Assembly (NCBI GenBank): GCA_947258435.1
Contig: CAMYID010000015.1
Coordinates: 1-64,000, forward strand
Source of the DNA: an uncultured Alphaproteobacteria bacterium
GTDB taxonomy: Bacteria > Pseudomonadota > Alphaproteobacteria > UBA11222
DNA length: 64,000 nucleotides
Direction: 5' to 3'
Position 1 is the first letter of the stretch, and every line of letters starts with the position of its first letter. A model generated the notes under the pieces. That model worked only from the letters and a program-made list of their open reading frames with translations, was not told the DNA's origin and searched no databases. Below are positions 1 to 21,342 of this stretch, one piece after another. The translations under genes and the position numbers were made by a program.

Positions 1-1
1 G

Positions 2-256
2 ATGCGCGCGGCGCGCGCATTGCTTGGGATCGACCAGATGGCGCTTGCGAAACTGGCAGGGCTTTCCTTGCCGACGATTCAGCGGATGGAGGCAAGTCGC
101 GGTCATGTACGCGGCACCGTGGAAAGTCTGACGAAGGTGGTTGCGGGGCTGGAACGTGCGGGGATTGAACTTATCAGTGAAAATACGACAAGCCATTCAG
201 GTGGGCGCGGTGTCCGGCTTCGCGCCGATACGGCCGACGGTGAGAAGATCAATTGA
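2..256 (+). CDS. XRE-like helix-turn-helix regulator, 5' end missing
   Basis: Small DNA-binding protein, 84 residues visible. An HTH of the Cro/C1 type spans about residues 4-35, with the pattern LLGIDQMALAKLAGLSLPT followed by QRMEAS. Alphaproteobacterial members of this small family normally have a few residues before the RAARALLG segment, so the true start probably lies left of the window and the gene is treated as partial. The conserved GGRGVR segment near the C-terminus is typical of the family. It ends 45 bases before the SulP gene, so co-transcription with, or local control of, the transporter is a reasonable inference. The target is unknown. Confidence 0.75.
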   Translation: MRAARALLGIDQMALAKLAGLSLPTIQRMEASRGHVRGTVESLTKVVAGLERAGIELISENTTSHSGGRGVRLRADTADGEKIN

Positions 257-301
257 TGCGTAGACCGGGCTGTCGCGAAATAACAGGGTAGTCATGCAGC
301 G

Positions 302-2095
302 ATGACAATGCGGCGGATGCGCCCCGCGCGCAGTGAGCGAAGTAGACCGGCGGCGGCAAAGCCCGGCTTTGCAGCGCTTTTTACCCCCAAGCTTGTCACT
401 GTGTTGCGTGAAGGTTATGGCTTGCGCCAATTCAGATCGGATGCCGTGGCCGGCCTGACGGTTGCGGTTGTGGCCCTGCCCCTGTCCATGGCGATAGCGA
501 TCGCCTCGGGGGTGACGCCGGCACAGGGGCTTTATACAGCGATTGTCGGCGGTTTTATTGTCTCCCTGCTGGGTGGCAGCCGGTTTCAGATCGGCGGTCC
601 TGCGGGCGCATTCATCGTGCTTGTCGCGGCGACTGTACAGATGCACGGGGTCGACGGGCTGGTCCTCGCGACAATCATTTCGGGGGGGTTGCTGCTCGCT
701 ATCGGTTTCCTGCAGCTCGGCACCTTTATAAAATTCATCCCTTATCCGGTAACGGTGGGTTTTACTGCCGGGATCGCGGTAATCATTTTCGCCAGCCAGT
801 TGAAGCCGCTTCTCGGGCTGACACTGGATGGCCCCGAGCCCGGACCGCTTGTCGAGAAGATTCCCATGCTCTGGCACGGCTTGCCGGGGTGGAGCGCCGC
901 ATCGTTCGGCCTTGCGCTGCTTACCATCAGCTGCATTCTGTTTCTCAAGGCGCGCTGGCCGCGTTGGCCGGCTATGCTGATCGCCATCGCACTTTCTTCC
1001 ATCGTGGCAGCGCCGCTTGATTTTCAGGTCCCAACGATCGGGTCGGAATTTGGCGGTATACCGCCGTCACTGCCGCCTTTTGCTCTACCTGAATTCGGTT
1101 TGGAAAAAATTATTGCCGTGCTGCCGAACGCCATAGGTTTCGCGTTGCTTGGTGCGATCGAGTCTTTGCTGTCGGCTGTGGTCGCCGATGGCATGACAGG
1201 GCGGCGGCACCGTTCCAACTGCGAACTCGTTGGACAGGGGGTCGCCAATATCGCTTCCGGATTTGCCGGCGGCTTTTGTGTGACCGGCACGATCGCGCGC
1301 ACGGCAACCAATGTACGTGCCGGTGCGCATGGGCCGGTGGCCGGCATGCTGCATGCGCTGTCGCTGCTTTTTTTCATGCTGATTGCAGCACCGCTTGCCG
1401 CCTTCATACCGCTGGCGAGCCTGGCGGGGGTGCTTGCGGTGGTTGCCTGGGATATGGTTGAAAAACATGCATTCGTCATGCTTCTGCGTGCGTCACGCGG
1501 CGACGCGCTTGTTCTGGTTTCGACATTCTTGCTGACAGTGTTCCGGGATCTGACCGAGGCGATCATTGTTGGATTTGCCTTGGGTTCAGTGCTGTTTATC
1601 TACCGCATGTCGAAGGAGATCGGGATCGAGACACATGCGCCCCTGGTTCTGTCTGATCGCGCCGATAATTCTGGCGACAAGCGGCCATCTTATGACGCTG
1701 GCGTGGTTGCGGATCCGGAAATCCTCGTTTACCGGATCTCGGGAGCGCTTTTCTTTGGCGCTTCGGCGGCGATCGGTGCGGTGCTTGATCGGATCGCTGA
1801 TACCCATCGATTGCTTGTTATCGACCTTGATGCGGTGTCATTGATCGATTCGACTGCGGCTAATGTTATCTGCAATCTTGCCCAAAAGGCCGCCAATAGC
1901 AGTGTGGGTTGCGTATTGACAAGTGCCTCGCCGGCAGTGCGGCAGGCATTATCGGCCTATGGCGTGGCGCCGCCGCTTGTCAGCTATGCGGCCAGTGTTT
2001 CCGACGCCGTCCGCGATTATCGCGCGGACCGCTCTTCCACCTTGTCGCAAGAAGTTCTCTCTTCCGAAGGCGTTTCCGGAGTGTGCCAGAAATAG
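302..2095 (+). CDS. SulP-family inorganic anion transporter with STAS domain
   Basis: Inner-membrane anion transporter of the SulP/SLC26 family, 597 residues, the usual length. A multi-helix Sulfate_transp domain runs about residues 45-430 (opening GLRQFRSDAVAGLTVAVVALPL), followed by a cytoplasmic STAS domain about residues 460-570 (LLVIDLDAVSLIDST). Substrate cannot be read from the sequence; bicarbonate, sulfate and other anions are all known in the family. No carbonic anhydrase gene is adjacent. The start ATG at 302 is followed by an Arg-rich cytoplasmic leader; a second ATG two codons on is equally possible. The 3' end overlaps a minus-strand small ORF by 79 bases. Confidence 0.9.
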   Translation: MTMRRMRPARSERSRPAAAKPGFAALFTPKLVTVLREGYGLRQFRSDAVAGLTVAVVALPLSMAIAIASGVTPAQGLYTAIVGGFIVSLLGGSRFQIGGPAGAFIVLVAATVQMHGVDGLVLATIISGGLLLAIGFLQLGTFIKFIPYPVTVGFTAGIAVIIFASQLKPLLGLTLDGPEPGPLVEKIPMLWHGLPGWSAASFGLALLTISCILFLKARWPRWPAMLIAIALSSIVAAPLDFQVPTIGSEFGGIPPSLPPFALPEFGLEKIIAVLPNAIGFALLGAIESLLSAVVADGMTGRRHRSNCELVGQGVANIASGFAGGFCVTGTIARTATNVRAGAHGPVAGMLHALSLLFFMLIAAPLAAFIPLASLAGVLAVVAWDMVEKHAFVMLLRASRGDALVLVSTFLLTVFRDLTEAIIVGFALGSVLFIYRMSKEIGIETHAPLVLSDRADNSGDKRPSYDAGVVADPEILVYRISGALFFGASAAIGAVLDRIADTHRLLVIDLDAVSLIDSTAANVICNLAQKAANSSVGCVLTSASPAVRQALSAYGVAPPLVSYAASVSDAVRDYRADRSSTLSQEVLSSEGVSGVCQK

Positions 2096-2193
2096 GCGGG
2101 GTCGACTTCGCGCATCAGGCATGGCGGCGCGGCGCATTCGATCACCTGTTCGGCTTGGGCGGTGCCGGGTAACGCCTCGTCGTTATGTTTCAT
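2017..2193 (-). CDS. Small 58-residue protein, antisense to the end of the SulP gene
   Basis: Short ORF read from the sequence: an ATG at 2193 preceded at 6-bp spacing by an excellent Shine-Dalgarno (CAGGGAGGATGTC then ATG), then 58 codons to TAA at 2017. The product begins MKHNDEALPG and contains the segment PPCLMREVDPAYFWHT. The PPC-x-x-x-E-x-DPAY pattern resembles the N-terminal motif of several small alphaproteobacterial proteins of unknown function; this is from memory and not tested. It is acidic, has three Cys and no signal or membrane segment. It overlaps the SulP 3' end by 79 bases in antisense, which weakens the case for it. Function unknown. Confidence 0.5.
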   Translation of the reverse strand: MKHNDEALPGTAQAEQVIECAAPPCLMREVDPAYFWHTPETPSEERTSCDKVEERSAR

Positions 2194-2361
2194 GACATCC
2201 TCCCTGATTTTGCAACGAGCCCCGCATGAACCGCATAAACTCTAGAACGCGCGGCGATCTGACGCAAATCCGCAGCAGCCTGCGGATTGACCCTCATGCG
2301 TTGCGTTCGGATAATAGTCGTATCAAGGCGTGAAGCCATTTGCCAGGAAGGGGAGGCGCGT

Positions 2362-3528
2362 GTGAGGACATCACTGTTTTACTTGCCATCTGTCGGTAGC
2401 AAGAAGGAAATGGAAGAGGGGATGGTCGGCCTGCGGCCCGAGCTTTATCAGCAGATGCTGAAGGAGCTGAGCGAGCAGGCAAAACTCGCCGATGAGGCAG
2501 GTTACGATTCCATCAGCTTTACCGAACATCACTTCCATGTCGAAGGGTTCGAGATGTCGAACAATCCGATCCTTCTTGATTTGTTTGTTGGTATGCAGAC
2601 GAAGAATATCCGGGTCGGTCAGCTCGGGATCGTGCTGCCTGCCAATAACCCGATCCGGGTGGCCGAGGATATTGCCATGCTTGATCATATGACGGGCGGG
2701 CGGGCCTGCGCTGGCTTTGCGCGCGGCTATCAGCGTCGCTGGGTCGATATCATGGCGCAGCAGACGCACGGGATTCACGGCGCGAGCCCGCATCAGCATG
2801 ATGAGATCGATGCGGCCAATCGCGCCGCGTTCGAAGAATGCTTCACCATCATCAAGAAATGCTGGACCGAGGATCTGCTGAGCTATCAGGGCAAATACTG
2901 GAATGTCCCGCCCGGCGAAACGCCGTGGGATGTCGACTTCACCAACAAATATGGCGCTGGTATTGAAAATGGTGTCGTGAAGCAGGTCGGCGTCGTGCCC
3001 AAGCCGCTGCAAAAACCGCATCCGGAAATCTTTCAGCCCTTCGCCTCGTCTGAACGCAGCGTGCGCTGGTGTGCGGCGGAAGGGGCGACGGCGGTGTTGC
3101 CGCCATTGCACCCCAAGCTTGAGGAACGGCTGATCGATGCCTATCAGGAAGTGTCGGGCAAGCCGCGCGGGCAAGGGATCGGGATCCTGCGCGATATCGT
3201 GATTGCAGACAGCGACGAGGAGGCATTGCAGCTCTGGACCGATTCGGGCCGCTATTGCGGCGAACAATGGTTCGCGCCGTTCCATTTCGGGGAAGGTATG
3301 CTTGACCCTGATACAGGTGAGGATAATTTTGCGCATGAGAATTATCTCGATATGGGCTATGCGCTTGTCGGCACCGTGGATACCGTTTGCCGCCAGATGG
3401 AGGCACTGACCAAGCGGCTGCCGGTTAACTGGATTTTTGGCTGGGCTTATAACGGGCTGTTGCCGCATGACAAATTGATGCAGACGCTCGAGCTTTATGC
3501 AACCAAGGTGATGCCGAAATTCGGTTAG
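2362..3528 (+). CDS. LLM-class flavin-dependent oxidoreductase
   Basis: Bacterial luciferase-like (LLM) flavin monooxygenase, a TIM-barrel cytoplasmic enzyme using reduced flavin; 388 residues from the chosen GTG. The N-terminus RTSLFYLPSVGSKKEMEEGM, the active-site-like segment SFTEHHFHVEGF and the LLD-x-FVGMQT-x-x-IRVGQLG strand are typical. The GTG at 2362 sits 5 bases after AGGAAGGGGAGG and matches the family start, whereas the longer frame adds 25 non-family residues. Substrate is not predictable. It stands alone between the SulP and MFS genes. Confidence 0.85.
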   Translation: MRTSLFYLPSVGSKKEMEEGMVGLRPELYQQMLKELSEQAKLADEAGYDSISFTEHHFHVEGFEMSNNPILLDLFVGMQTKNIRVGQLGIVLPANNPIRVAEDIAMLDHMTGGRACAGFARGYQRRWVDIMAQQTHGIHGASPHQHDEIDAANRAAFEECFTIIKKCWTEDLLSYQGKYWNVPPGETPWDVDFTNKYGAGIENGVVKQVGVVPKPLQKPHPEIFQPFASSERSVRWCAAEGATAVLPPLHPKLEERLIDAYQEVSGKPRGQGIGILRDIVIADSDEEALQLWTDSGRYCGEQWFAPFHFGEGMLDPDTGEDNFAHENYLDMGYALVGTVDTVCRQMEALTKRLPVNWIFGWAYNGLLPHDKLMQTLELYATKVMPKFG

Positions 3529-3602
3529 GCATGCGCTGAAACAGTCCGTGCCCACTGGAAGGGACCCGGTCAGGGGCATTTACTTTGTCCCCTGTTTGCG
3601 GC

Positions 3603-4889
3603 ATGGCTCCTGCCATGAGCGGTGCCCCACATAACAGAGCGAACGGGACGGGCGCGCGGTTTCCTGCCGCCCGGATCAGCCTGTTTTATATCTGTATCTT
3701 CCTTGTGATGGGGGTGCATCTGCCTTACTGGCCGGTCTGGTTCGCCGCGCGCGGGTTGAGTGCGGATGATATCGGGCTGATCCTGGCGCTGTCGCTCGGC
3801 CTGCGGGTGGTTGCGGGACCGGTGATCGCGGTTTCGGCGGATCGCCTGGGGCGTCGGCGCGGGCCGCTTGTCGCGCTTGCATCGGGGTGTTTGGCGGGGT
3901 TCGCGCTCTATGGCCTGACCGATAGCTTCTGGTCGATCCTGTTTGTGACCCTGATCGCGAACGCGCTGTTATCGGCGATGATGCCGCTTATCGATACGCT
4001 GGCATTGCAGCGCGCGCCGCTCGACGGGTTCGATTATGGCCGGGTGCGTTTGTGGGGGAGTATCAGCTTTATTGCCGCCAGTATGGGGGGCGGCTGGTTT
4101 CTGGCGCAGGTGACAGGCGCGGGTGCCGAGCAAATCTGGGGCATGGTGCTTGTGGCTGCGGCGCTAACGGTGGGGGCGGCCTGTCTGCTGCCAGGGGAGC
4201 GGCGCAGCCCGGGGATTGATGGGCAAACGGACGTTAGTCGCCGTTTCCCGTCCTCCCGTCATGTCTGGTCGGCGGCGCTCGGGCTCTGCGGGCACCGCCA
4301 GTTCTTGCTGTTCGTGCTGGCGGCCGCTGCTATTCAAGGCGGGCATGCGGTCTATTACGCTTTCGGTACGCTTCATTGGCGGCAGGCGGGGCTTGACGAC
4401 AGCTTGATCGGAATCCTGTGGGCGATCGGGGTTGTCGCTGAAATCCTGTTATTTCTGGTTGCGGCCCCCTTTGTCGCGCGGCTCGGTCCGGCCTGGTGCA
4501 TCGCAGTTGGCGGCGTTGCGGGCATTCTGCGCTGGAGCGTGACGGCCTTCACGCCCGCATTGCCTGTTCTTATGCTGATGCAGTGTCTGCATGCCTTTAC
4601 CTTCGGGGCGACGCATCTGGGGGCGATGCATTTTCTCAGCCGTGCCGCGCCGCCCGGTCTCGCGGCAACCGCGCAAAGCATTTATGCGGCGTTGTCGGCG
4701 GGGTTGGTGATCGGTGCGGTCACCTATCTGTCGGGCGTTGCCTATCAGGCGTGGGGCGGTTTTGCCTATCTGGGGATGGCGCTGTTATGTGCGGCCGGCG
4801 CGCTTGCGGCCATTCGGCTGGCGCGGGTGTGGGACGGCGATGTTCTGGCCGCTCAGCCCCAAAGCGCCGAAGCGGCGGGGAACAGCTGA
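3603..4889 (+). CDS. MFS transporter, phenylpropionate-permease (HcaT) type
   Basis: Twelve-helix major facilitator protein of the MFS_1_like group. The first helix pair reads LFYICIFLVMGVHLPYWPVWFAARGLS, and the loop 2-3 motif DRLGRRRGPL follows; both resemble 3-phenylpropionate/HcaT-type and sugar proton symporters. ATG codons at 3603 and 3615 are both possible; neither has a convincing ribosome-binding site, and an upstream TTG at 3585 is less likely. It converges on dgcA and overlaps its end by 37 bases (4853-4889), so no terminator space exists between them. Substrate unknown; proximity to the D-glutamate genes is suggestive only. Confidence 0.8.
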   Translation: MAPAMSGAPHNRANGTGARFPAARISLFYICIFLVMGVHLPYWPVWFAARGLSADDIGLILALSLGLRVVAGPVIAVSADRLGRRRGPLVALASGCLAGFALYGLTDSFWSILFVTLIANALLSAMMPLIDTLALQRAPLDGFDYGRVRLWGSISFIAASMGGGWFLAQVTGAGAEQIWGMVLVAAALTVGAACLLPGERRSPGIDGQTDVSRRFPSSRHVWSAALGLCGHRQFLLFVLAAAAIQGGHAVYYAFGTLHWRQAGLDDSLIGILWAIGVVAEILLFLVAAPFVARLGPAWCIAVGGVAGILRWSVTAFTPALPVLMLMQCLHAFTFGATHLGAMHFLSRAAPPGLAATAQSIYAALSAGLVIGAVTYLSGVAYQAWGGFAYLGMALLCAAGALAAIRLARVWDGDVLAAQPQSAEAAGNS

Positions 4890-5824
4890 CCGTGGGCCGC
4901 ATAATGCAGGCCCGGCTCCCGGTCGCGGGCGAGCAATAGCGGCCCGTCAAGATCAACATAATCGGCAAATTGCGCCAGCAGCAGGGCGGGCGCCATGGCA
5001 AGCGAAGTGCCCACCATGCAGCCAACCATAATGCCAAGCCCCGCCTCGCGCGCCGCCCGGGCAAGCGCCAGTGCGGCGGTCAGTCCGCCGCTCTTGTCGA
5101 GCTTGATGTTGATCGCGTCATAGCGCGCGGCAATGTCGGCAAGATTGTCTGTGCCGTGGCTTGATTCATCGGCGCACAGGGTCAGCTTGCGGGGAAAGCC
5201 CGCAAGCGCCGCATCATTGCCTGCGGGGAGCGGTTGTTCGATCAGGCAGACATTCAGCGCGCATAATGCAGGTTCGACCTGGGCGAGCAGATCGATATCC
5301 CATGCCTCATTCGCATCGACGATCAGCTTGGCATCGGGTGCAGCGTGATGGATCGCCGTCACCGTTTCAACAATCCGGTCGGGCCCGAGTTTGAGCTTCA
5401 GAATCGGAAACTCTTTCGCATCAGCCGCTGCCGTCGCCATGGCGCGGGGCTCATCAAGGCTGAGGGTAAAGGCGGTCGTGACCGGGGTAGGCGCGCGCAA
5501 CCCCGCCAGTTGCCAAACCGGCTTGCCGGCTTTTTTTGCCGCAAGATCCCACAACGCGCAATCAAGCGCATTGCGCGCCGCGCCGGGCGGCAGGGCATCG
5601 GCAAGCGCCTCACGCGTGATTGCGACCGGCACGGATGCGATGGCGGCGGTGACGCTGTCGCGCGTTTCGCCATAGCGGCCATAGGGCACGCATTCGCCGC
5701 GTCCGGTGAACCCGTCTTCCTCAATTGTCACGCAGACGACATCGGCACTGCGCTTGCTGCCCCGCGAAATCGTGAAACTGCCTCGGATCGGCCAGCTTTC
5801 GGTGGTGATATGTCTTTGCCGCAC
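4853..5824 (-). CDS. dgcA: N-acetyl-D-glutamate racemase (DgcA), enolase superfamily
   Basis: Enolase-superfamily epimerase of the dipeptide-epimerase/MR-MLE subgroup, 323 residues. Visible catalytic features: KLK at 143-145, metal ligands Asp170 (VDAN), Glu196 (IEQP) and Asp219 (ADES), and a second lysine pair in KLDKSGG at 241-247. Next to a DUF1611 protein it matches the DgcN-DgcA pair, in which D-Glu is N-acetylated and then racemised to N-acetyl-L-Glu; that assignment is established in marine bacteria and transferred here by context. Alternatively it could be an L-Ala-D/L-Glu epimerase. Start GTG at 5824 lies 4 bases after the dgcN stop; a longer reading frame runs back into dgcN. Confidence 0.8.
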   Translation of the reverse strand: MRQRHITTESWPIRGSFTISRGSKRSADVVCVTIEEDGFTGRGECVPYGRYGETRDSVTAAIASVPVAITREALADALPPGAARNALDCALWDLAAKKAGKPVWQLAGLRAPTPVTTAFTLSLDEPRAMATAAADAKEFPILKLKLGPDRIVETVTAIHHAAPDAKLIVDANEAWDIDLLAQVEPALCALNVCLIEQPLPAGNDAALAGFPRKLTLCADESSHGTDNLADIAARYDAINIKLDKSGGLTAALALARAAREAGLGIMVGCMVGTSLAMAPALLLAQFADYVDLDGPLLLARDREPGLHYAAHGQLFPAASALWG

Positions 5825-5828
5825 CCGT

Positions 5829-6845
5829 TCACACCTCTTGCAACAGCCGGTCGATGATGGGGCCGGTACCATCACGCACCGGGTCGATGCAGGGCAGCTG
5901 ATACGCATTTTCCATCTCGCGCAGCAGGGAGTGCGCTGCATCGTCGGGCAAGGCGACCGTGTTCACCGCGATCCCGACGCAGCGAATGGCCGGGTTCGTC
6001 ATCTGGCCAAGTCGCAAGATAAGATCGATGCAATCCGCGATATCGGGTATGGGGGCCGCGACATTGCGCAGGGTCTTGCGGGTGGGTTCATGGCACAGCA
6101 CGAAGGCGTCAGGCTGCGCCCCGTGCAGCAATCCCAACGTTACCCCGGCAAATGACGGGTGAAACAGTGATCCCTGTCCCTCGATAATATCCCAGTGATT
6201 GTCCGGGGCGGGCGGGCTCAGCCATTCCGCGGCGCCCGAGATGAAATCCGCGATCACCGCATCGATCGCGACCCCGGCACCCGCAATCAGAATACCCGTC
6301 TGGCCTGTCGCACGGAAATCCGCATCGATCCCGCGTCCGCGCATGTCGCGTTCGAGCGCAAGTGCTGTGTACTTCTTGCCGACTGAGCAATCGGTACCCA
6401 TGGTCAGCAGTCTTTTGCCGGTACGGGGCAGTCCGCTGCCCGTCGAAAAGCTGTGGGCGGGATGGCGCACATTGTGAAGCCGGCGGCCATTTCGCGCGGC
6501 GGCTGCGGCGATTTGCGGGATTTCCTCAAGCCGGGCATGCATGCCGCTGGCAAGATCAAGCCCGTTATCGAGCGCTTCAGTCAGTGCATAAATCCAGCTA
6601 TCGGGAATCTGGCCGCCGGGATTGACCGCGCCGATAACCATGGTGCGTGCGCCCGCCGCCACCGCCGCGCCGGGGCTTAATTCGGGCAAGTCAAGCGTTG
6701 CGCGGCACCCGGGCAGCCGGTATTGCCCGACGCAGTGTTCACGCCGCCAGTCGGCAATGCCATGGGCTGTCTTGGCGGCAAGATCGTCATGCGCATCGCC
6801 AAGAAACAGCAGATAGGGGCGCTGAATGTCCGTCTCGTCGGGCAT
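5829..6845 (-). CDS. dgcN: DUF1611 protein, D-glutamate N-acetyltransferase DgcN
   Basis: DUF1611-family protein of 338 residues with a Rossmann-like N-terminal half and a P-loop-like segment MGTDCSVGKKYTALAL in the middle, followed by the IEGQGSLFHPSFAGVTLGLL stretch typical of the family. DgcN acetylates D-glutamate as the first step of D-Glu catabolism. The ATG at 6845 is preceded by GGAG at 6-base spacing; 14 extra codons upstream look unconserved. It is translationally linked to dgcA (4-base gap). No DgcR-type regulator is visible nearby. Confidence 0.8.
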   Translation of the reverse strand: MPDETDIQRPYLLFLGDAHDDLAAKTAHGIADWRREHCVGQYRLPGCRATLDLPELSPGAAVAAGARTMVIGAVNPGGQIPDSWIYALTEALDNGLDLASGMHARLEEIPQIAAAAARNGRRLHNVRHPAHSFSTGSGLPRTGKRLLTMGTDCSVGKKYTALALERDMRGRGIDADFRATGQTGILIAGAGVAIDAVIADFISGAAEWLSPPAPDNHWDIIEGQGSLFHPSFAGVTLGLLHGAQPDAFVLCHEPTRKTLRNVAAPIPDIADCIDLILRLGQMTNPAIRCVGIAVNTVALPDDAAHSLLREMENAYQLPCIDPVRDGTGPIIDRLLQEV

Positions 6846-6941
6846 GCTCGTCTCCGCAACAACCGGATGGCGCGGTTTTGCCAACACATTACCGGATTTC
6901 CGTCTGCAACCCTTTTCAGCCAGCAGTGAACCGGCATCAAG

Positions 6942-8228
6942 CTATTCGAATGAATCGAACAGGTCGTTGTCCGTTGCGCTTGGTATTGTGTTGCCCTTGC
7001 GCAAGGCGACGTCCCGGTTCTGATAATAGGTTGCCCGGAAAGTCGCATACCAGTCGAGGGAATCTTCGCGCAATTCATCAAGCGGTTCGACCAGTGTTTC
7101 GCGCAAGGTAATGGCATCGCCGACCGTCAGACCGATCTTCACCGGCTCGTCGACCGCATCGATCCAGGTGAGCGGATTGCTTGCCACATCGACGATCCGG
7201 CCGAAATGGTGGCGGATGCTGCCCGGACCGATAACGGGCACCACAAGATACGGTCCCGCGGGCAGACCATAATGATCAAGCGTCTGTGCGAAATCGGCCG
7301 GATGGCCCGGATGCCCGATACGTTCGGCAACATCGAAAAAGCCAAGCCCGCCAACCGTGCTGTTCATCAGGAACCGGCCCAGCGTGGTTCCGGCTCCCGA
7401 CATGTCGAACTGCAAGACGTCATTGAAGAGAATGACGGGGGAGCGCAGATTATCAAATGCATTTCGGACCCCTTCCTTGATGGGCGCAGGGGTGATCCAG
7501 CCATAAGAGGCGGCAACCGGTCGGATCAGAAAATCATCGAGAAACTGGTGCACCGCAAAAAGCGGCCGGTTGACCGGCTCCCACGGATCCCAGAAGGCCG
7601 GGCTGGGATCGCGGCTGGGCGGTGGCGGTGAATAATCGCGTGCGGCTTGCGCAGGCGCTTCGGTCATCAGCCGGGGCGGATTGGCTGCTGGCCGGGAAAA
7701 CTGTGCGGCAGGTTGGAGAGGGGCCTGCGGCGCAGCAATCGGGGCGGGTGTATATGCGGGAGCCTGCGCATATGCCGGGGCCGCGGCCATGGGGTTTGCC
7801 GACAGGATCTGATTACTGAAGCCGGGGAAGGATGCCACCGCGCTCCCGATGATTTCATTGCGTAAATCCGGTGCGTGCGCGACTGCCGCCGAAACGATAC
7901 CGGGCGCGGCTTGCGGATATTGTGCGATGGCGGCATTGACGATGTAGTTGAAGGTGGCCGCCGACTGGCGTCTTTGTTCAGCCTGCATTTGCTGCGTGAG
8001 TACAGGATCGCGGACTGTTGCTGACATATAGGCCAGACGCGCGGCATCCTGTTGCGCAAGTTGCGCCGCATTCTGAAAATCGACCCTCAGGCTGGGCGGG
8101 AACTGGGCCTGGGCGGCAGCCGTCGCCATCATGATCCGCGGCAAGAATGTCAGCGCGACAAGGCATGTCACCGCCCACAATGTCGCTTTCCGGCGCGCGG
8201 AGCAGCCACTCATTGCCTGATCGTTCAT
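6942..8228 (-). CDS. MlaA (VacJ) family phospholipid-transport protein with long N-terminal extension
   Basis: The C-terminal 215 residues are an MlaA domain (from about residue 212, FWDPWEPVNRPLFAVHQFLDDF), the outer-membrane component that extracts phospholipids from the outer leaflet. Residues 1-42 form a hydrophobic signal ending ATAAAQAQF, a signal peptidase I-type site with no lipobox Cys, unlike canonical lipidated MlaA. Residues 45-210 are a family-atypical extension: a helical part with APGIVSAAVAHAPDLRNEIIGSAV-like repetition, then a Pro/Ala-rich linker. It is the last gene of the minus-strand run that includes mlaC, 82 bases after the Sel1 gene. Start at 8228 is the ORF's own; later Met codons at residues 6 or 33-34 are possible. 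Confidence 0.85.
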   Translation of the reverse strand: MNDQAMSGCSARRKATLWAVTCLVALTFLPRIMMATAAAQAQFPPSLRVDFQNAAQLAQQDAARLAYMSATVRDPVLTQQMQAEQRRQSAATFNYIVNAAIAQYPQAAPGIVSAAVAHAPDLRNEIIGSAVASFPGFSNQILSANPMAAAPAYAQAPAYTPAPIAAPQAPLQPAAQFSRPAANPPRLMTEAPAQAARDYSPPPPSRDPSPAFWDPWEPVNRPLFAVHQFLDDFLIRPVAASYGWITPAPIKEGVRNAFDNLRSPVILFNDVLQFDMSGAGTTLGRFLMNSTVGGLGFFDVAERIGHPGHPADFAQTLDHYGLPAGPYLVVPVIGPGSIRHHFGRIVDVASNPLTWIDAVDEPVKIGLTVGDAITLRETLVEPLDELREDSLDWYATFRATYYQNRDVALRKGNTIPSATDNDLFDSFE

Positions 8229-8310
8229 AACCCCCTCACCCTGTCTTGCCGGTGCTGTCGGATTGCGGGAAAATATCCCTCGACAGCCGACCGAACCAGT
8301 CCGTGTCGCC

Positions 8311-9114
8311 TTACCGGCTGCGGAAGGATGCCGCGCGTGCTTCCGCCTCTGCTATCTGGGCTGGCCCCATCTTCGCGCGCAGCTTTTCCGCAAGTGACGC
8401 GGATTCAGCAATCCCTTGCTTAGCGGCGATCAGCGCCCAGGTCAACGCGGCCACCTGGTCGCGGGGAACCCCTTCCCCTTCGGCCAGACGGCGTGCAATA
8501 TGGCGTTGCGCCCGCGCATGCCCGCGCAATGCCGCCTGCTCGAACCAGAATGCCGCTTTCCCGGGGTCGGCTGCGGTGCCGAATCCGTCGCGATAATATT
8601 TGGCAAGCCCGTATTGGGCCTTCGCAAATCCCTGCTTTGCAGACAGGGCGAGATAGTTGAAGGCTTGCGCGGGATCGGCGGGTCCTGTCAGCCCCTCGGC
8701 CAGTAATTTCCCTAGCGTATATTGCGAATTCGCAAATCCCGATGCCGCGGCCAGCCGCAGATAGCGCTCGGCGCGCTCGGCATCGGCGCGAACGCCGTCA
8801 CCCGCCAGATAGGTAAGCGCCAGATTATGCTGCGCACTGTGATGGCCGTTATCGGCTGCTTTCTGCCACCAGTCGAGCGCTTCGCTCATATTGCGCGCAA
8901 CCCCCCGGCCATCGGCATAGATCACACCGAGATTGAACTGCGCTGCAGGGTGACCGGTATCGGCAAGTGTTTGCCAGATTGCCCGGGCGGTCGTGAAATC
9001 GCCGCGCTGATAAGCCTGGTCGCCGCGTGCGAATGCGTCTTCCTCGCCCTCCCGGCAGCCGCTGATCGTCAGGGTGGATATTATGGCAGCGATAAGTATG
9101 AAGCGATATTTCAT
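8311..9114 (-). CDS. Sel1-repeat lipoprotein
   Basis: Predicted lipoprotein of 267 residues. The N-terminus MKYRFILIAAIISTLTISGC carries a lipobox with Cys20. It is followed by about five to six Sel1-like (TPR-related) repeats, each with the AQFNLGVIYADGRGV or AQYGLAKYYRDGFGT pattern, over residues 30-245. Such solenoids scaffold protein contacts; the partner here is unknown. Its ATG overlaps the mlaC stop by 4 bases (ATGA), so the two are translationally coupled, suggesting that it acts with the phospholipid-transport components. Confidence 0.85.
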   Translation of the reverse strand: MKYRFILIAAIISTLTISGCREGEEDAFARGDQAYQRGDFTTARAIWQTLADTGHPAAQFNLGVIYADGRGVARNMSEALDWWQKAADNGHHSAQHNLALTYLAGDGVRADAERAERYLRLAAASGFANSQYTLGKLLAEGLTGPADPAQAFNYLALSAKQGFAKAQYGLAKYYRDGFGTAADPGKAAFWFEQAALRGHARAQRHIARRLAEGEGVPRDQVAALTWALIAAKQGIAESASLAEKLRAKMGPAQIAEAEARAASFRSR

Positions 9115-9794
9115 CCGATCCCCTCCGCGGGCAGCCGTTCGACCTTTGCGCGCAACTGTCGCAGCAGCCCGGGCATTCCCAGACGCGCAATGACGGCGGC
9201 AAATTCCTGCCGCTGGGTGATCGACATGCTGATCCCTTCAACCGAAACGTCGATAATCTTCAATGTGCCGTCAATATGCCGTACCCGCCAATCGGCGGTC
9301 AGCGGCTGGCCCGACCCGCCGCTGATAACCGAACGGACGACCATATCCTGCTTGCCGCCGGAATAGACATTGGCTACATGAAACTGTTGCCCCGCATAGC
9401 CGCCAAGCCGGGCGGCGTAGGTCTTAAGCACGAACTGGCCAAACAGTTCGCGATATTCTTCCTGCTGCTCGGGGGTTATCTGCCGCCAGTATTTTCCAAG
9501 GACGAACCGGCTGATAAAATCAAGATCGAACTTTGAGCGAAGAAGCCGGTGGAACTGGGCCTCGCGCTGGTTCAGGGTCAGATCGGGTTGCCGCAGAACC
9601 GAGATGGCCGTTGCCCCAAGATCGGCGATGAAGCGTTCGGCCTCCTGCGTTTCGGCAGACGCAAATCTGCGCTGCATTTGCGCGGCGGCCAGTGTCGTGG
9701 CCAGCAGCAAAAACAGCACGATATATGTGGCAAACCGGGCCAGATGGCCGCATTTGCCCGGGTTCGACGCAGTTACAATCATGACAGTCCGCAT
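9111..9794 (-). CDS. mlaC: MlaC-family periplasmic phospholipid carrier
   Basis: Periplasmic lipid shuttle (MlaC/Ttg2D, Tol_Tol_Ttg2 domain), 227 residues. A signal-anchor or signal peptide lies at about 20-38 (ATYIVLFLLLATTLAAAQ), then the family core with FVLGKYWRQITPEQQEEY-x-x-LF and the C-terminal VEGISMSITQRQEF segment. MlaC ferries phospholipid between the outer-membrane MlaA and the inner-membrane MlaFED. It lies 2 bases downstream of the cyclase gene and overlaps the Sel1 gene by 4 bases. The matching mlaEFD genes are about 10 kb away on the other strand. Confidence 0.9.
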   Translation of the reverse strand: MRTVMIVTASNPGKCGHLARFATYIVLFLLLATTLAAAQMQRRFASAETQEAERFIADLGATAISVLRQPDLTLNQREAQFHRLLRSKFDLDFISRFVLGKYWRQITPEQQEEYRELFGQFVLKTYAARLGGYAGQQFHVANVYSGGKQDMVVRSVISGGSGQPLTADWRVRHIDGTLKIIDVSVEGISMSITQRQEFAAVIARLGMPGLLRQLRAKVERLPAEGIG

Positions 9795-9796
9795 GG

Positions 9797-12049
9797 TTAT
9801 TTCGATGTGGCGACAAAAACGCCGTCCCAGTCGGGGCCGGGCGGGTTTGCCCGATATTCGGCAATCCGTTCCGCATAAAGATCGTACAGAACGTGATTGG
9901 CGTCTTCACGGGCGCGTAGCGTGTCGAGCAGATTTTGCGCCTCATCCCACTTCTGCGCGCGGTAGGCCGTGATCATATCGGCATGCAGCGCGGACCAGTT
10001 TTTGAAGTCGCTGTCATTTTTCATTTCCGCGTCGCCAAGCAGGGCATAGATCTGTACCGCCTCGCTTTTGCCTTTTACAGCGATCAGGTCAAGTTCGATC
10101 AGCGCGAAATCATCCTTGACCGATTCATAGGTCTCCGCCCCGACGACGATCGTCGCGCCATAGTTCTTGGATTGCGATTCAAGGCGTGCGCCCAGATTGA
10201 CGGCATCGCCCAGCACCGAATAGTCAAAGCGCTGCTTGGAACCCATATTGCCGACAACGCATTCACCGGTATTAAGGCCGATACCGATATTGATCGGCAG
10301 GAAGGGGCGGTTTTCACGCTCGGCTTCTTCTTTCAGCTCAGCATTGAGTATCTTGAGATCGCGGATCATCTCAAGCGAGGTCGTGCAGGACTGCATTGGG
10401 TGATTGGGCACATCAAGCGGTGCATTCCAGAATGCCATGATGCAGTCGCCCATATATTTGTCGATCGTCCCCTCGCGCGACAGGATGAGGTCTGTCATGG
10501 GCGTCAGAAAGCGGTTGATCAATTGCGTCAGACCCTGCGGATTGCCCTTGAACTGTTCCGAGATCGGCGTGAAACCACGAATATCGCAAAACAGGAAGGT
10601 CATGGTGCGGGTTTCGCCGCCCAGTTGCAGGCGGTCGGGTTCTTCGGCAAGCTGCTCGACCAGCGCGGGGGACAGATATTGGCTGAAAGCACCGCGGACC
10701 TGTGCCTTTTCCGCTTCGGTGCGCAGGAAATTGACCAGTGTGCCCGTGACGAACATGAGCCCCACCGTGACGCTCGGGCCGACCGGGTCAAGCAGCCACA
10801 GTTCTTCGGAATACAGATACCAGGAAGCGCCAAAGGCGAACAGAATACCGCCACCCGCCACAATGGCGCAGGTAATTGCCGATACCCGCCGCAGCAGCAC
10901 AAGCAGAACGATTCCAAGCACAATCAGAAAAACAAGTTCCGCCCCCTGCGCCCAGTCGGGCCGGGTCAGAAAATGTTCAAGCAGGATTTGCTCCAGCAAC
11001 TGAATATGCACCTCCACCCCTGCAGTGGCGGAATTAAGCGGCGTTGCCCGCAAGTCCTTCAGACCCGCGGCGCTCGGCCCCACAAACAGCACATTGCCGG
11101 CAATACGCTGCGGGTCGAAATCTTCGCTGAAAAGCTCCCAGACCGGCACCCGTCTTTCGGGTCTGTCTTCTGTGTAATGTAGCCAGACGCGGCCTGTTTT
11201 TGTTGTCGGTATCTCGATCCGGCCCACGCGAATGGCGTTGATGCCGGTCTGTTCGCCAAAGGACTCGGTCATATTTGCGCCCGACGATTTGATGATATAG
11301 GTCGAGGCGCCCTGCAGGACCCGCAGGGTTTCCATTGCAAGCGTTGGATAAAGCTTTTCGCCTTTGGTCACGACAAGCGGGACCCGGCGAATGATATTGT
11401 CCCGTTCCGCGATGAAGTTAAAGCTGCCATTGCCGGCCGCCGCCTGTTCGAGTTTCGGCAGATTCGGCACCGCGCCATAGAATTTCGGCAGGAAAATTTT
11501 GGGGTCGTCCCCGGCAAAGGAATAGCCGGCTTTGACAACCGGTTCCTGGCTGTTTTCCATATCGGTCAGGGTGAACCCGGTCACCACATTGGCCTGCGCC
11601 AGGATATCGGCAAGAATATCGTCATGATTGGGTAATTCGCCGATTTGCGCACGGACATTCTGCAACTGCGGAATCTGGGCCAACTGTTCAAGAAACTGGT
11701 CCGGCGATGTCCGGTCGGGTTCGGCAAAAACAATATCGAAGACCACCGCATAGGCGCCCGCATTCGCCGCGCGTGCCACAAGTTCAGCAATATAGGTGCG
11801 CGGCCAGGGCCATTGGCCGAGCCGCGCCAGGCTTTCATCGTCGATATCAAGATGTTTGACGCCGACCCCCGCAACCGGTTGCGGGTCGATATATTCGCGC
11901 GGTTCAATCCGCTGATAGAGGTCAAAAATGCCGTTGCGCGCATTGGTGATGATGAAGAACGGGTCGGCCAGGATCAGAAAAAGCGCAAATATCAGGACAA
12001 AGCCGGGAATAAAGTCCTGCAAGCGTTTGATCAGGGTCGATAATGACAT
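9797..12049 (-). CDS. CHASE2-domain class III adenylate/guanylate cyclase
   Basis: Membrane receptor cyclase of 750 residues. Order: N-terminal membrane helix (17-34), extracytoplasmic CHASE2 sensor (about 40-360), three membrane helices (about 370-440), then a class III nucleotide cyclase domain (480-672). Metal ligands Asp489 (FCDIRGFT) and Asp535 (KYMGD), transition-state Asn618 and Arg622, and Lys531 with Ser611 at the base-specifying positions all look intact; Lys plus Ser/Thr suggests the class IIIb adenylate type. A short helical tail follows. It is 2 bases upstream of mlaC, so the same mRNA probably encodes lipid-transport parts. Confidence 0.9.
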   Translation of the reverse strand: MSLSTLIKRLQDFIPGFVLIFALFLILADPFFIITNARNGIFDLYQRIEPREYIDPQPVAGVGVKHLDIDDESLARLGQWPWPRTYIAELVARAANAGAYAVVFDIVFAEPDRTSPDQFLEQLAQIPQLQNVRAQIGELPNHDDILADILAQANVVTGFTLTDMENSQEPVVKAGYSFAGDDPKIFLPKFYGAVPNLPKLEQAAAGNGSFNFIAERDNIIRRVPLVVTKGEKLYPTLAMETLRVLQGASTYIIKSSGANMTESFGEQTGINAIRVGRIEIPTTKTGRVWLHYTEDRPERRVPVWELFSEDFDPQRIAGNVLFVGPSAAGLKDLRATPLNSATAGVEVHIQLLEQILLEHFLTRPDWAQGAELVFLIVLGIVLLVLLRRVSAITCAIVAGGGILFAFGASWYLYSEELWLLDPVGPSVTVGLMFVTGTLVNFLRTEAEKAQVRGAFSQYLSPALVEQLAEEPDRLQLGGETRTMTFLFCDIRGFTPISEQFKGNPQGLTQLINRFLTPMTDLILSREGTIDKYMGDCIMAFWNAPLDVPNHPMQSCTTSLEMIRDLKILNAELKEEAERENRPFLPINIGIGLNTGECVVGNMGSKQRFDYSVLGDAVNLGARLESQSKNYGATIVVGAETYESVKDDFALIELDLIAVKGKSEAVQIYALLGDAEMKNDSDFKNWSALHADMITAYRAQKWDEAQNLLDTLRAREDANHVLYDLYAERIAEYRANPPGPDWDGVFVATSK

Positions 12050-12163
12050 AGGCGGAACCCGATAAATCGATGGTGCGCGAGGCGCATGTCAGGAATTCAA
12101 TGCTGGGGACTATATTAACCGCGCGCGGAAGATGCCAGTGACTTGGGCAACAGTTTGCCGATT

Positions 12164-13402
12164 TCAGTCTTTCAGGTCATCCCAGATATCGGAAAAACCC
12201 TGATGGGTACTGGCGAACAGCTCGATCAATGTCGGGTCGAAATGCTCGCGCGGGTTCAGCCGGTCATCGCCGTTCAGGATAATGTCCAAGGTCTTTTCGT
12301 GGCTGAAGCCCGGTTTATAGGGGCGTTCGGCACGCAAAGCGTCATAAACATCGGCGATCTGCACGATGCGGGCTGACAGCGGAATCGCATCACCTTTCAG
12401 ACCGTTCGGATATCCGGTGCCGGCCCAGGCCTCATGATGGTTGAGCGCAATCTCGGCGGCCATTTCAAGGCGCGGCGAGTCCTTCAGGATCTGATGGCCA
12501 TAGATTGTATGCTGGTCCATTTCCTTACGTTCGCGGTCATCAAGCCGGCCCTTCTTTTTCAGAACCGCCTGATCGACGCTCATCTTGCCGACATCGTGCA
12601 GTTGCGCGCTGTAGCGGATTTCGTCGCAGAAATCGGCGGGCGCGCCGAATTGCTGCGCAATGAAATAGCTATATTCATTGGTCCTGACGATATGGTTGCC
12701 AGTGCCCTCATCATGGATTTCCGCCGCCCGTGCAAGCATGCCAATCGACAGCATGAAGGCTTCCTCGGTTTCGGACTGCAAGGTGGCGATATGACTGCGT
12801 TGTTCGCCAAGCTGCCGGTTGCGCTCACGCAGGATGCGGTTTTTCGCCTTGATCTGCTCAAGCATATCGGCACGCTCGATACTGGTCGCGACGATGCGGG
12901 CGACCGGTGCCACGATGCTGCCCATATAGGGGTCGAACGGAATGATCTCACCGCTTTCAGCGGAGATGCGGTTGATCAGCTGTACCACGCCGATCACCTT
13001 GCCGGTGTAGTTCTTCAGCGGGAAGCACAACATCGAGCGGGTGGGGTAATTGGCGGGCGCATTTGCCGGATCGAAATGGTAAGGCGCTTCGGGCGGGATC
13101 TTCAGCACATCGTCGATCGCGATTGTTTCCCCGGCCATCGCGACATGACCTGAAATCGTGTCATGGCTTAACGGAATTTCGAAATCCGAACGTTTGACCG
13201 GAATCCTGTCATTCTGCACGTTCAAGGCCTGCAGAAAGGCTTTGCTTCGCTTGCGGCGGACAATGAAAATCGTGCCTGCTTCCGCACCGGTCAGCAGCCG
13301 TGACTTCTGCAACACCCGGGACAGCAACTGCTTGAGCGATTGCTGCGGCTGCGATTCCACAAATTCGAGGAATTCCTGTGAAAGGTCTTGACGATAGTCC
13401 AT
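12164..13402 (-). CDS. GAF and HD-GYP domain protein, putative cyclic-di-GMP phosphodiesterase
   Basis: Cytoplasmic signalling protein of 412 residues. GAF domain at about 20-175 (LTGAEAGTIFIV ... MLCFPLKNYTGKVIGVVQLIN), a coiled linker 178-212, then an HD-GYP domain 213-400. The HD pair is at 269-270 (LHDVGK), and the second metal cluster HHE is at 322-324 followed by GTGYP at 328-332. The usual Asp of HHE-x-x-DG is Ala327 here, a small departure from consensus. Members hydrolyse c-di-GMP to pGpG/GMP. It lies 114 bases upstream of the cyclase gene on the same strand. Confidence 0.88.
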   Translation of the reverse strand: MDYRQDLSQEFLEFVESQPQQSLKQLLSRVLQKSRLLTGAEAGTIFIVRRKRSKAFLQALNVQNDRIPVKRSDFEIPLSHDTISGHVAMAGETIAIDDVLKIPPEAPYHFDPANAPANYPTRSMLCFPLKNYTGKVIGVVQLINRISAESGEIIPFDPYMGSIVAPVARIVATSIERADMLEQIKAKNRILRERNRQLGEQRSHIATLQSETEEAFMLSIGMLARAAEIHDEGTGNHIVRTNEYSYFIAQQFGAPADFCDEIRYSAQLHDVGKMSVDQAVLKKKGRLDDRERKEMDQHTIYGHQILKDSPRLEMAAEIALNHHEAWAGTGYPNGLKGDAIPLSARIVQIADVYDALRAERPYKPGFSHEKTLDIILNGDDRLNPREHFDPTLIELFASTHQGFSDIWDDLKD

Positions 13403-13719
13403 TATGCTTACAAAAAAGTTGGCAAATATAAGATGCTAAGCAGCATGACGTAATTTCTGTCATGCCTTGAGTATCAGCATGCATCCCCTGACAGTATAAT
13501 ACGACCGCTCGATAAAGTCACATATTGTACTTTATCAACTTTGGTACAATTCAAGTTCCTTGTCCGCCTTGCGGGCATTGACAGAGCGTGCAACCGGTTT
13601 TCGCCTATGTCGGCGCGCTGCCTGCCGGCATCACCTGCACCGGACATCGGCTTTAAACAGTAGCATTTCTATACTAATTTAGGCTTCATTACTGAAACTT
13701 AAACAGCCAGGGTTTGGAA
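13403..13719. other. 317-base divergent intergenic region with an inverted repeat
   Basis: Region between the HD-GYP gene (minus) and the TAXI gene (plus), which must hold promoters for both directions. It is more AT-rich than its surroundings. A TATAAT hexamer lies at 13495-13500 on the plus strand without a -35 box at normal spacing. A 7-bp perfect inverted repeat is at 13524-13550. No credible ORF or RNA gene was seen. Confidence 0.5.
13524..13550. promoter_or_regulatory. Inverted repeat ATTGTAC-N13-GTACAAT, possible operator
   Basis: Perfect 7-bp arms at 13524-13530 and 13544-13550 separated by 13 bases, about 170 bases before the TAXI gene and 120 bases before the HD-GYP gene. The spacing would place the arms about two helical turns apart, as for a dimeric regulator. 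There is no T-tract, so a terminator is unlikely. The cognate regulator is unknown. Confidence 0.35.
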
Positions 13720-14816: not shown

Positions 14817-15227
14817 CTACTCTGCCGTCGCTTCTTTCAGATAGGCGAGCACATTGGCGATCTGCTTGTCTTTCCGCAAACCTGCAAACGCCATTTTGTT
14901 TTTCGGAATGAAGTCCTTGGGCTTGCGCAGATATTGTTCCAGCGTCTCGTCATTCCAGCTCAGCCCGTTCGCGCCGGCTTCGACCATCGCGTCAGAAAAG
15001 TTGAAACCTTCCGCTGTGCCCGCCGCGCGGCCGAAGATGCCCGAAAGGTTGGGGCCAACCTTGTGCTTGCCGCCAGCTTCAACCGTATGGCAGGCCTTGC
15101 ATTTCTTGAATACTCTCTCGCCCTTGGCTGCGTTGCCAGCCTCAAGTGCGAAAGCGCCGCCTGCGGTAGTTGAAGAAACCAGGAATGCCAGCGCAACCAT
15201 GCGCAGGCTGCTTCCGAAACGATACAT
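14817..15227 (-). CDS. Class I cytochrome c (c2/mitochondrial type)
   Basis: Periplasmic monohaem cytochrome c, 136 residues. Signal peptide about 1-28 ending AGGAFA-L. Haem-binding motif CKACH at 43-47 and axial Met112 in the KNKMAFAG segment; the [13 protein letters not shown] and [13 protein letters not shown] stretches match cytochrome c2 and mitochondrial c. It probably shuttles electrons between the bc1 complex and an oxidase. The ATG at 15227 is preceded by AAGGAG at 6-base spacing, so the 12-codon upstream extension is rejected. Monocistronic. Confidence 0.93.
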
Positions 15228-15461
15228 AAACTGCTCCTTATGTGCCTGAAAACCGTATGTCAAATGGCCGATGGCGCCCCTGGGCCAGGCTGTGGCCCTA
15301 AACGCGTCCGATGGCAGGTCGCTGCCGACCGAACGCCTGCTTATACAAAAACAGGTTCGAAGAGAACAGGCACAGTTTGTCGCACTGGCATAGGGATAAG
15401 AGGGGATAGCAGGCTTTTGATTGTTCGCACGGTTATTATGTAGATTGTCTGCAGGCGTGCC

Positions 15462-19245: not shown

Positions 19246-19405
19246 AACCGGACCCCATGGGTGAAATGTGTTTTTCTTGCCGGGCAATTTACACAGCCGC
19301 TCCGCGCGCGCCAATCTTTCCCCTGATTTTCCATCGCACTTACTTGCCCTTATGGATGGGCTTGGGCAAACTGCGGCATGGCCGTCAGGCGGGGTTAGGG
19401 GCTTT

Positions 19406-20527
19406 ATGGCGACACTGGAATGGTCCGAACAGGCAGATAGGGTGGAGGTCAGGGCCACCGGCGACTGGGTAATTGCCCGGCTGGCCCCGCTTGAAGCGCA
19501 ACTGCGCAGGCTGCTTGATGTCGGGGGCGGGGATCTGCATTTCGATCTGGGGGATCTGGGCCGGCTTGATACCGCCGGAGCATGGCTGATCCATCGTACG
19601 CTGAAGGCGCTTGAAAAATCGGGCAGGCAGGTCCGGCTGCAGAACGCAACTGAAGATCAGGCTGCGCTGATCGCGCGGGTCGCGGCCAATGATAAGCCGC
19701 ATCCGGCGGAGCCCGAAGGCGGTAATGCCTTTCTGCATGTGGTGGCGGAAATTGGCGAAACGGTCCTTGATGCCTGGCGTGAAACCCGCGACCTTCTGGG
19801 TTTTTTCGGACTGACAGTTGCAACGCTTGGGCGTGCGGTGCGGCAGCCTGCGCGGGTGCGGTTGACCTCGCTTGTGTATCACCTTGAACAGGTCGGTTTG
19901 AATGCGGTGCCGATTGTGGCGCTGATTTCCTTCCTGATCGGGATCGTGCTTGCCTATCAGGGGGCGACGCAGTTACGCCAGTTCGGAGCGGAAATCTTTA
20001 CGGTCGAGCTGGTTGCGATTTCGGTACTGCGCGAGATCGGCATTCTGTTGACCGCCATCATTGTGGCAGGGCGGTCGGGCAGCGCCTTTACCGCGCAGAT
20101 CGGCTCCATGAAACTGCACGAAGAAGTGGATGCAATGCGGGCGCTGGCGCTCGATCCGATGGAAATGCTGGTTTTGCCGCGGATCCTTGCGCTGATCATT
20201 GCGCTACCGATGCTTGGCTTTATCAGTGCGATGATGGGGCTGGCCGGCGGTGCGGTGATGTGCTGGGTATCGCTTGATATTTCGCCTGGCCTTTATATCG
20301 AGCGGCTTTATGAGGGGGTAACGCTGTCGCATTTTCTGGTCGGGATTGTGAAGGCCCCGTTTTTTGCGCTGATGATCGGACTGATTGGCTGTTTTGAGGG
20401 GCTGAAGGTGGAAAGCAGCGCGGAATCTGTCGGCCGGCTGACAACGAAATCAGTGGTTGAGTCGGTCTTTATGGTGATTGTGGTCGATGCCTTTTTCTCC
20501 ATCTATTTCGCGGTGCTCGGGCTATGA
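19406..20527 (+). CDS. mlaE: MlaE-family ABC permease with N-terminal STAS domain
   Basis: Inner-membrane permease of the intermembrane phospholipid transporter, 373 residues. Residues 1-110 form an STAS-like domain (LHFDLGDLGRLDTAGAWLIHR), which supplies the role of a separate MlaB. The MlaE permease follows (about 150-373), with ALISFLIGIVLAYQGATQLRQ and the EIGILLTAIIVAGRSGSAFTA cytoplasmic loop that meets the ATPase. ATG 19406 is preceded by TTAGGGG; the 46-codon extension upstream is rejected. It overlaps mlaF by 4 bases. The fused STAS is common in alphaproteobacteria. Confidence 0.93.
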   Translation: MATLEWSEQADRVEVRATGDWVIARLAPLEAQLRRLLDVGGGDLHFDLGDLGRLDTAGAWLIHRTLKALEKSGRQVRLQNATEDQAALIARVAANDKPHPAEPEGGNAFLHVVAEIGETVLDAWRETRDLLGFFGLTVATLGRAVRQPARVRLTSLVYHLEQVGLNAVPIVALISFLIGIVLAYQGATQLRQFGAEIFTVELVAISVLREIGILLTAIIVAGRSGSAFTAQIGSMKLHEEVDAMRALALDPMEMLVLPRILALIIALPMLGFISAMMGLAGGAVMCWVSLDISPGLYIERLYEGVTLSHFLVGIVKAPFFALMIGLIGCFEGLKVESSAESVGRLTTKSVVESVFMVIVVDAFFSIYFAVLGL

Positions 20528-21339
20528 GTGCGGGGGATGCGGGGCGGCCGGTCATATCGGTGCGCGGGTTGCGGACGCAATTTGGCGCAACCGTTATCCA
20601 TGACGGGCTCGATCTCGACATCTTCGCAGGTGAGGTGGTGGGGATTGTCGGTGGATCGGGAACCGGCAAATCGGTCCTGTTGCGTACCATCATCGGCCTT
20701 AACAGGCCGCGTGCGGGCACGATCGCGGTATTCGGGCAACAACTTGATGAATTGGCTGCCGCCGAACGGCAGATGGTCGAGCGGCGCTGGGGGGTCTTGT
20801 TCCAGGACGGGGCGCTGTTCTCATCGCTGACAGTGGCGCAGAATGTGATGCTGCCGATGCGCGAACATCTCGACCTCTCCGAAGGGCTGATGGATGAGCT
20901 CGCGGCGATGAAGATCAGCATGGTGGGCCTGCAGCCCGATGCGTGCAACAAATACCCTTCTGAATTGTCGGGCGGGATGCGGAAACGCGCAGGGCTTGCG
21001 CGCGCGCTGGCGCTTGATCCCGATATTGTTTTTCTGGATGAGCCGACAGCGGGGCTTGATCCGATCGGGGCTGCGGCGTTCGATAATCTGATCCTGGAGC
21101 TGCAGCGCAATCTGGGGCTGACAGTGTTCATGGTGACCCATGATCTGGACAGCCTCAATGCGATTTGCGACCGTATTGCGGTGCTGGCTGAAAAGCGGGT
21201 GATTGTGACAGGTGACATGGCCCAAATGCTGGAGCACTCCCATCCCTGGATCAGGGACTATTTTCATGGCCCGCGGGCGCGGGCGCGGGCGGCCGAACTT
21301 GAACCCAAACAACCTGATCCCAAACAAGAGGATAGCTAG
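20524..21339 (+). CDS. mlaF: MlaF-type ABC transporter ATPase
   Basis: Cytoplasmic ATPase of the MlaFEDB-type transporter, 271 residues. Walker A GGSGTGKS near residue 50, Q-loop region FQDGALFSSLTV, ABC signature LSGGMRKR, Walker B IVFLDEPTAGLD and the H-loop VTHD are all intact. The ATG overlaps the mlaE stop (ATGA). A C-terminal tail RARAAELEPKQPDPKQEDS is charged and presumably flexible. Confidence 0.95.
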   Translation: MSAGDAGRPVISVRGLRTQFGATVIHDGLDLDIFAGEVVGIVGGSGTGKSVLLRTIIGLNRPRAGTIAVFGQQLDELAAAERQMVERRWGVLFQDGALFSSLTVAQNVMLPMREHLDLSEGLMDELAAMKISMVGLQPDACNKYPSELSGGMRKRAGLARALALDPDIVFLDEPTAGLDPIGAAAFDNLILELQRNLGLTVFMVTHDLDSLNAICDRIAVLAEKRVIVTGDMAQMLEHSHPWIRDYFHGPRARARAAELEPKQPDPKQEDS

Positions 21340-21342
21340 GCG

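Follow-up and report, generated by a model that had tools for sequence, protein, structure and literature searches.

A CHASE2 Class III Cyclase as an Old Resident of the Alphaproteobacterial Mla Locus

Described Mla Pathways and CHASE2 Cyclases

The Mla pathway of E. coli is made up of MlaA-OmpC, MlaC and MlaFEDB. The DNA considered here (the window: the first 64,000 nucleotides of contig CAMYID010000015.1, from an uncultured alphaproteobacterium) resembles it in encoding MlaA, MlaC, MlaD and MlaE domains together with an MlaF-type ATPase. It departs from the E. coli arrangement in its two divergent transcripts, in the fusion of a STAS domain to MlaE and in the presence of an ABC-auxiliary lipoprotein. 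A Sel1 lipoprotein gene lies between mlaC and mlaA, MlaA itself is N-extended and has no obvious lipobox, and the neighbours include a cyclase and an HD-GYP gene. The Mpc system of Brucella is a four-gene operon of mlaE/F/D-like genes and a PqiC-like auxiliary lipoprotein gene (PMC12436622), a set that the window shares. However, Brucella has no detectable MlaC and its MpcA is not MlaA-like, whereas the window has both MlaC and MlaA.

Three Sinorhizobium meliloti cyclases, CyaD1, CyaD2 and CyaK, combine CHASE2 with a class III cyclase domain, as in the window. They are activated through an outer-membrane barrel and are reported to act with NsrA and Clr (PMC13001267). A genomic link between them and Mla genes was not found in the literature searched, and a search for papers that connect CHASE2 to Mla or to phospholipid transport returned nothing relevant. 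In Xanthomonas, the XC_0250/XC_0249 pair links a class III cyclase gene to a c-di-GMP enzyme with a cyclic-mononucleotide sensor (PMC3770947), the same kind of linkage as in the window. The Xanthomonas sensor is a cNMP-binding domain joined to GGDEF and the nucleotide is cGMP, whereas in the window a GAF domain is joined to HD-GYP and the nucleotide is probably cAMP. By analogy, the Xanthomonas pair and the barrel-activated S. meliloti cyclases may be taken as precedents that support the model proposed below.

The Gene Run and the Mla Parts around It

The five minus-strand genes and the spacings given in the initial annotation are borne out by the open reading frame list and by Pfam. The run begins with a predicted GAF-HD-GYP phosphodiesterase of the c-di-GMP type (12164-13402; Pfam GAF and HD). 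The gene of a CHASE2 class III nucleotidyl cyclase follows after 114 bases (9797-12049; Pfam CHASE2, 2.5e-53, and Guanylate_cyc, 3e-20) and is separated by 2 bases from mlaC, which encodes a predicted MlaC/HpnM-like periplasmic phospholipid-binding protein (9111-9794; 2.7e-40). mlaC overlaps by 4 bases the gene of a lipoprotein with four Sel1 repeats and a lipobox, ISGC, read by eye (8311-9114), and a gap of 82 bases leads to mlaA (6942-8228; MlaA domain, 1.1e-60). The run continues 54 bases past mlaA with two positional neighbours, dgcN (5829-6887) and then dgcA, an N-acetyl-D-Glu racemase gene conserved in many loci (4853-5941). Also on the minus strand, a class I cytochrome c gene (14817-15263) is, from Pfam and the neighbourhoods, a conserved member of the ancestral block (see below).

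A plus-strand operon at 19268-22946, absent from the initial annotation, supplies the other Mla half. It consists of mlaE (19268-20527), a permease gene with an N-terminal STAS domain whose true start may lie further in, the ATPase gene mlaF (20524-21339), mlaD with its MCE domain (21343-22284) and the gene of an ABC-transport auxiliary lipoprotein of PqiC/MpcA type (22281-22946). The window therefore holds a complete set of Mla parts, and MlaE, MlaF, MlaD, MlaC and MlaA homologues are all present in one genome, with mlaC-Sel1-mlaA on one strand and the mlaE operon on the other. Elsewhere in the genome there is a second, hopanoid-type mlaA-mlaC pair, whose neighbour of about 880 residues is taken as HpnN-like from its context, and contig 13 carries a second MlaE.

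The MlaA N-terminus, read by eye in the window, has a signal sequence and no obvious lipobox, the feature looked for as the mark of an outer-membrane lipoprotein. The domain is preceded by an extension of about 200 residues that is conserved, helical and proline-rich, with comparable extensions at loci L066, L098 and L069. Together, the extension and the N-terminus indicate that this is not a typical MlaA lipoprotein. Many alphaproteobacterial loci, relocated units included, have kept a Sel1-repeat lipoprotein gene between mlaC and mlaA, the product of which is possibly an Mla accessory protein. Between the window and L063, of the same genus, DNA identity is 97-100% over positions 1-8000 and 76-90% over 8000-13535. 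The drop is sharp and falls at about 8.0 kb, within the 5' part of mlaA; it resembles a breakpoint left by recent recombination, unless the sister assembly, with its 6% contamination, has a mosaic contig there.

Cyclase, mlaC and the Sel1 gene are likely co-expressed, given the 2-base gap and the 4-base overlap. The 114-base gap was suggested to be able to hold a promoter, and this suggestion gains ground: the gap is 76% identical to that of the sister genome, and the core of a promoter-like minus-strand site within it (12109-12138) is conserved there, so that the cyclase gene may be transcribed from a start of its own. However, it must be noted that promoter and terminator scans, taken alone, were not above chance. 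With such a core in the gap, that the five genes share one transcript is unproven. The 82-base gap before mlaA is poorly conserved (58% identity). Upstream of the HD-GYP gene, another minus-strand promoter-like site, GTGACT-17-TATACT (13493-13536, core conserved in the sister genome), overlaps a perfect 8-base inverted repeat, GATAAAGT-N10-ACTTTATC (13511-13536). With up to 2 mismatches allowed, the genome has no second copy of this palindrome, and the sister genome retains it only in part, so that it was ruled out as evidence of a regulon.

The cyclase carries its CHASE2 domain between hydrophobic helices at residues 16-34 and 368-386, in addition to the class III catalytic domain, and its closest solved relative is CyaB (3r5g). 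The metal-binding aspartates, the substrate lysine and the transition-state asparagine and arginine are all present (D489, K531, D535, N618 and R622), and K531/S611 are of the adenine type. The CHASE2 domain (window 10910-11977) was modelled with a pLDDT of 90. A fold search of the PDB with this model gave no E value below 0.047 (TM about 0.1), so that no ligand is indicated and the domain is apparently an unsolved fold.

Live and Dead Cyclases at Mla Loci

Recurrence of the cyclase-mlaC adjacency in other genomes had been set beforehand as the test of the initial annotation, and the adjacency does recur. The order cyclase, mlaC, Sel1, MlaA is found in 6/6 genomes of the window's own family (f1 under our anonymous labels, which includes MAG UBA11222). 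Cyclase and mlaC adjoin with no gene between them in three more families (f4, f117 and f124), while in f68 and f83 an HtrA-like or a GGDEF-EAL gene lies between the two. A MlaC profile built from the six f1 genomes and run against named genomes gave 80 loci, about 20 of which show, whole or in part, the order cytc-HD-GYP-cyclase-(HtrA-like protease)-mlaC-Sel1-mlaA-(hexapeptide protein)-dgcN-dgcA. An HtrA-like trypsin-PDZ protease gene (L098:8831-9868 and relatives) immediately precedes mlaC in many loci, and its tie to mlaC is closer than that of the cyclase.

Of 385 sampled alphaproteobacterial genomes, 22 have a CHASE2/cyclase gene and mlaE on one contig at a distance of at most 15 kb; random placement would yield about 1 by a rough estimate. 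Since the sampled genomes are related, families are the better count. When the neighbourhoods are read, 12 families prove to have a CHASE2/cyclase gene at an Mla locus (f1, f4, f10, f26, f30, f68, f83, f92, f117, f122, f124 and f137), usually with mlaE-F-D-auxiliary head-to-head with (cytc)-CHASE2 protein-(mlaC). Chance adjacency is rejected on this recurrence. The CHASE2-cyclase gene is an old resident of the alphaproteobacterial Mla locus. This arrangement is real and recurs, and no description of it turned up in the literature searched.

Seven of the 12 Mla-linked families encode a cyclase without catalytic residues. The CHASE2 protein tree unites the 20 sequences whose sites are broken, without exception, in one clade (support 0.999) that spans f4, f5, f10, f92, f117, f122, f124 and f137. 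Nearly all of its genes adjoin mlaE, those of f5 being unlinked; its branches are long, which makes its exact position in the tree less certain. The window cyclase belongs to an intact group (support 0.88) with Mla-linked members in f1, f26, f30, f68 and f83 and a few unlinked relatives. Wherever the sequences of these five families cover the site, all catalytic residues are retained, a pattern that implies that activity is selected for. The cytc and dgcA flanks are common to the live and the dead forms, so that both probably descend from one ancestral locus rather than two.

The dead domain is maintained by selection. Between two f4 members it is 71% identical with a pN/pS of 0.28, values that indicate purifying selection, against 39% identity and a pN/pS of 0.62 for CHASE2. 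In f117 CHASE2 is lost, and the membrane part with the dead domain persists between mlaE and mlaC. Catalytic loss in seven families and CHASE2 loss in f117 mean that no universal tie to cAMP or to CHASE2 sensing exists. The proposals that lipid asymmetry is tied to nucleotide signalling, and that CHASE2 does the sensing in the periplasm, thus fail as general statements. Both may hold in the window's lineage, where every part is intact.

In this lineage an intact cyclase has a GAF-HD-GYP phosphodiesterase as its partner. Both HD-GYP motifs (HDVGK and HHExxxGxGYP) are intact in the window. A same-strand HD-GYP gene is present at most 3 kb upstream of 13/17 intact Mla-linked cyclases with enough flank, of 0/15 dead linked ones and of 0/10 intact unlinked ones, counts that come from related sequences and are not independent. 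Among solved structures, the GAF domain is closest to the cNMP-binding GAFs of PDE5, PDE2 and cyanobacterial CyaB2 (about 1e-15 to 1e-16 for PDE5 and CyaB2). By eye, LINR and the phenylalanine of the NKFDE motif are present and Asp-Glu is absent, so that the motif is not complete. The genome has eight cNMP-binding-domain matches. A GGDEF-EAL gene is found upstream of mlaC in two other families, and L107:179-2422, 38 bases upstream of mlaC-Sel1-mlaA, encodes an ABC-ATPase with a C-terminal cyclic-nucleotide-binding domain. Together with the HD-GYP gene, these cases indicate that cyclic-nucleotide and c-di-GMP genes recur near mlaC.

Signalling, Scaffolding or Inherited Gene Order

The best model for the window's lineage, possible if short of probable on the sequence comparisons, assumes that the cyclase reports the state of the envelope through cAMP to the HD-GYP enzyme and that lipid transport is matched to it. 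The cyclase would turn a condition of the envelope or of the periplasm into cAMP, the HD-GYP enzyme would read the cyclic nucleotide via its GAF domain and lower c-di-GMP, and co-expression with mlaC-Sel1-mlaA would match lipid transport to that condition. The incomplete NKFDE motif of the GAF domain and the possible separate promoter of the cyclase weigh against this model. In the sister clade the locus protein would have become a pseudo-cyclase with a non-catalytic role. More tentatively, the whole (pseudo)cyclase family may be a dedicated Mla partner, acting through cAMP on GAF-HD-GYP in some families and as a dead-enzyme regulator at the mlaE/mlaC junction in others.

A serious rival, itself on the doubtful side of even, is inherited gene order: cyclase, cytochrome c, HD-GYP and dgc genes would be neighbours by descent in a slowly rearranging block, with no function in lipid transport. 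When distinct MlaC-Sel1 loci are sorted by neighbours, 15 have the cyclase as well as dgcA, 8 have the cyclase alone, 6 have dgcA alone and 20 have neither (8 of these 20 read for more than 5 kb on both sides). The cyclase was never found beside the 20 relocated MlaC-Sel1 units, the stable unit being MlaC-Sel1(-MlaA), often with HtrA. dgcA and cytc are retained in the block about as faithfully as the cyclase, and neither has a known Mla link. Conservation at the block is therefore not specific to the cyclase, and it is this equal faithfulness, with the bare relocated units, that gives the rival its weight. In f26 an inserted gene block parts the cyclase from HtrA-mlaC, and many intact cyclases of the same family sit away from Mla loci. 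Descent alone, however, accounts less readily for a protein that 12 families keep at the locus although identity falls to about 29%, dead enzymes included, for the few bases that separate the cyclase-family gene from mlaC in f1 and f124, and for purifying selection on a dead domain. Retention of the gene even as a dead enzyme suggests that regulation is slightly favoured over inherited order.

Alternatively, the role might be non-catalytic everywhere, the membrane-anchored (pseudo)cyclase domain acting from the cytoplasm as a binding partner or scaffold of the Mla transporter or of its regulation, with cAMP incidental. The loss of catalytic residues in seven Mla-linked families, the f117 protein pared down to its membrane part and dead domain, and the better conservation of the f4 dead domain than of CHASE2 agree with such a role. 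It is nevertheless unlikely, in view of the full catalytic residues kept by the five intact families and of an HD-GYP pairing confined to intact Mla-linked cyclases. That two unrelated units, HD-GYP plus cyclase and MlaC-Sel1-MlaA, merely share a transcript in the window's family is highly improbable: MlaC-Sel1-MlaA does occur alone, HtrA travels with mlaC and not with the cyclase, and f30 has the HD-GYP-cyclase pair without mlaC, yet even that pair lies 6-7 kb from mlaE.

The regulation of lipid transport between the membranes is largely open, and the literature searched gave no second-messenger input to Mla. In the cyclase, resident at the locus in 12 families, live enzymes, dead enzymes and a form that has lost the sensor domain make up a natural series, thanks to which the question of Mla regulation is directly testable.
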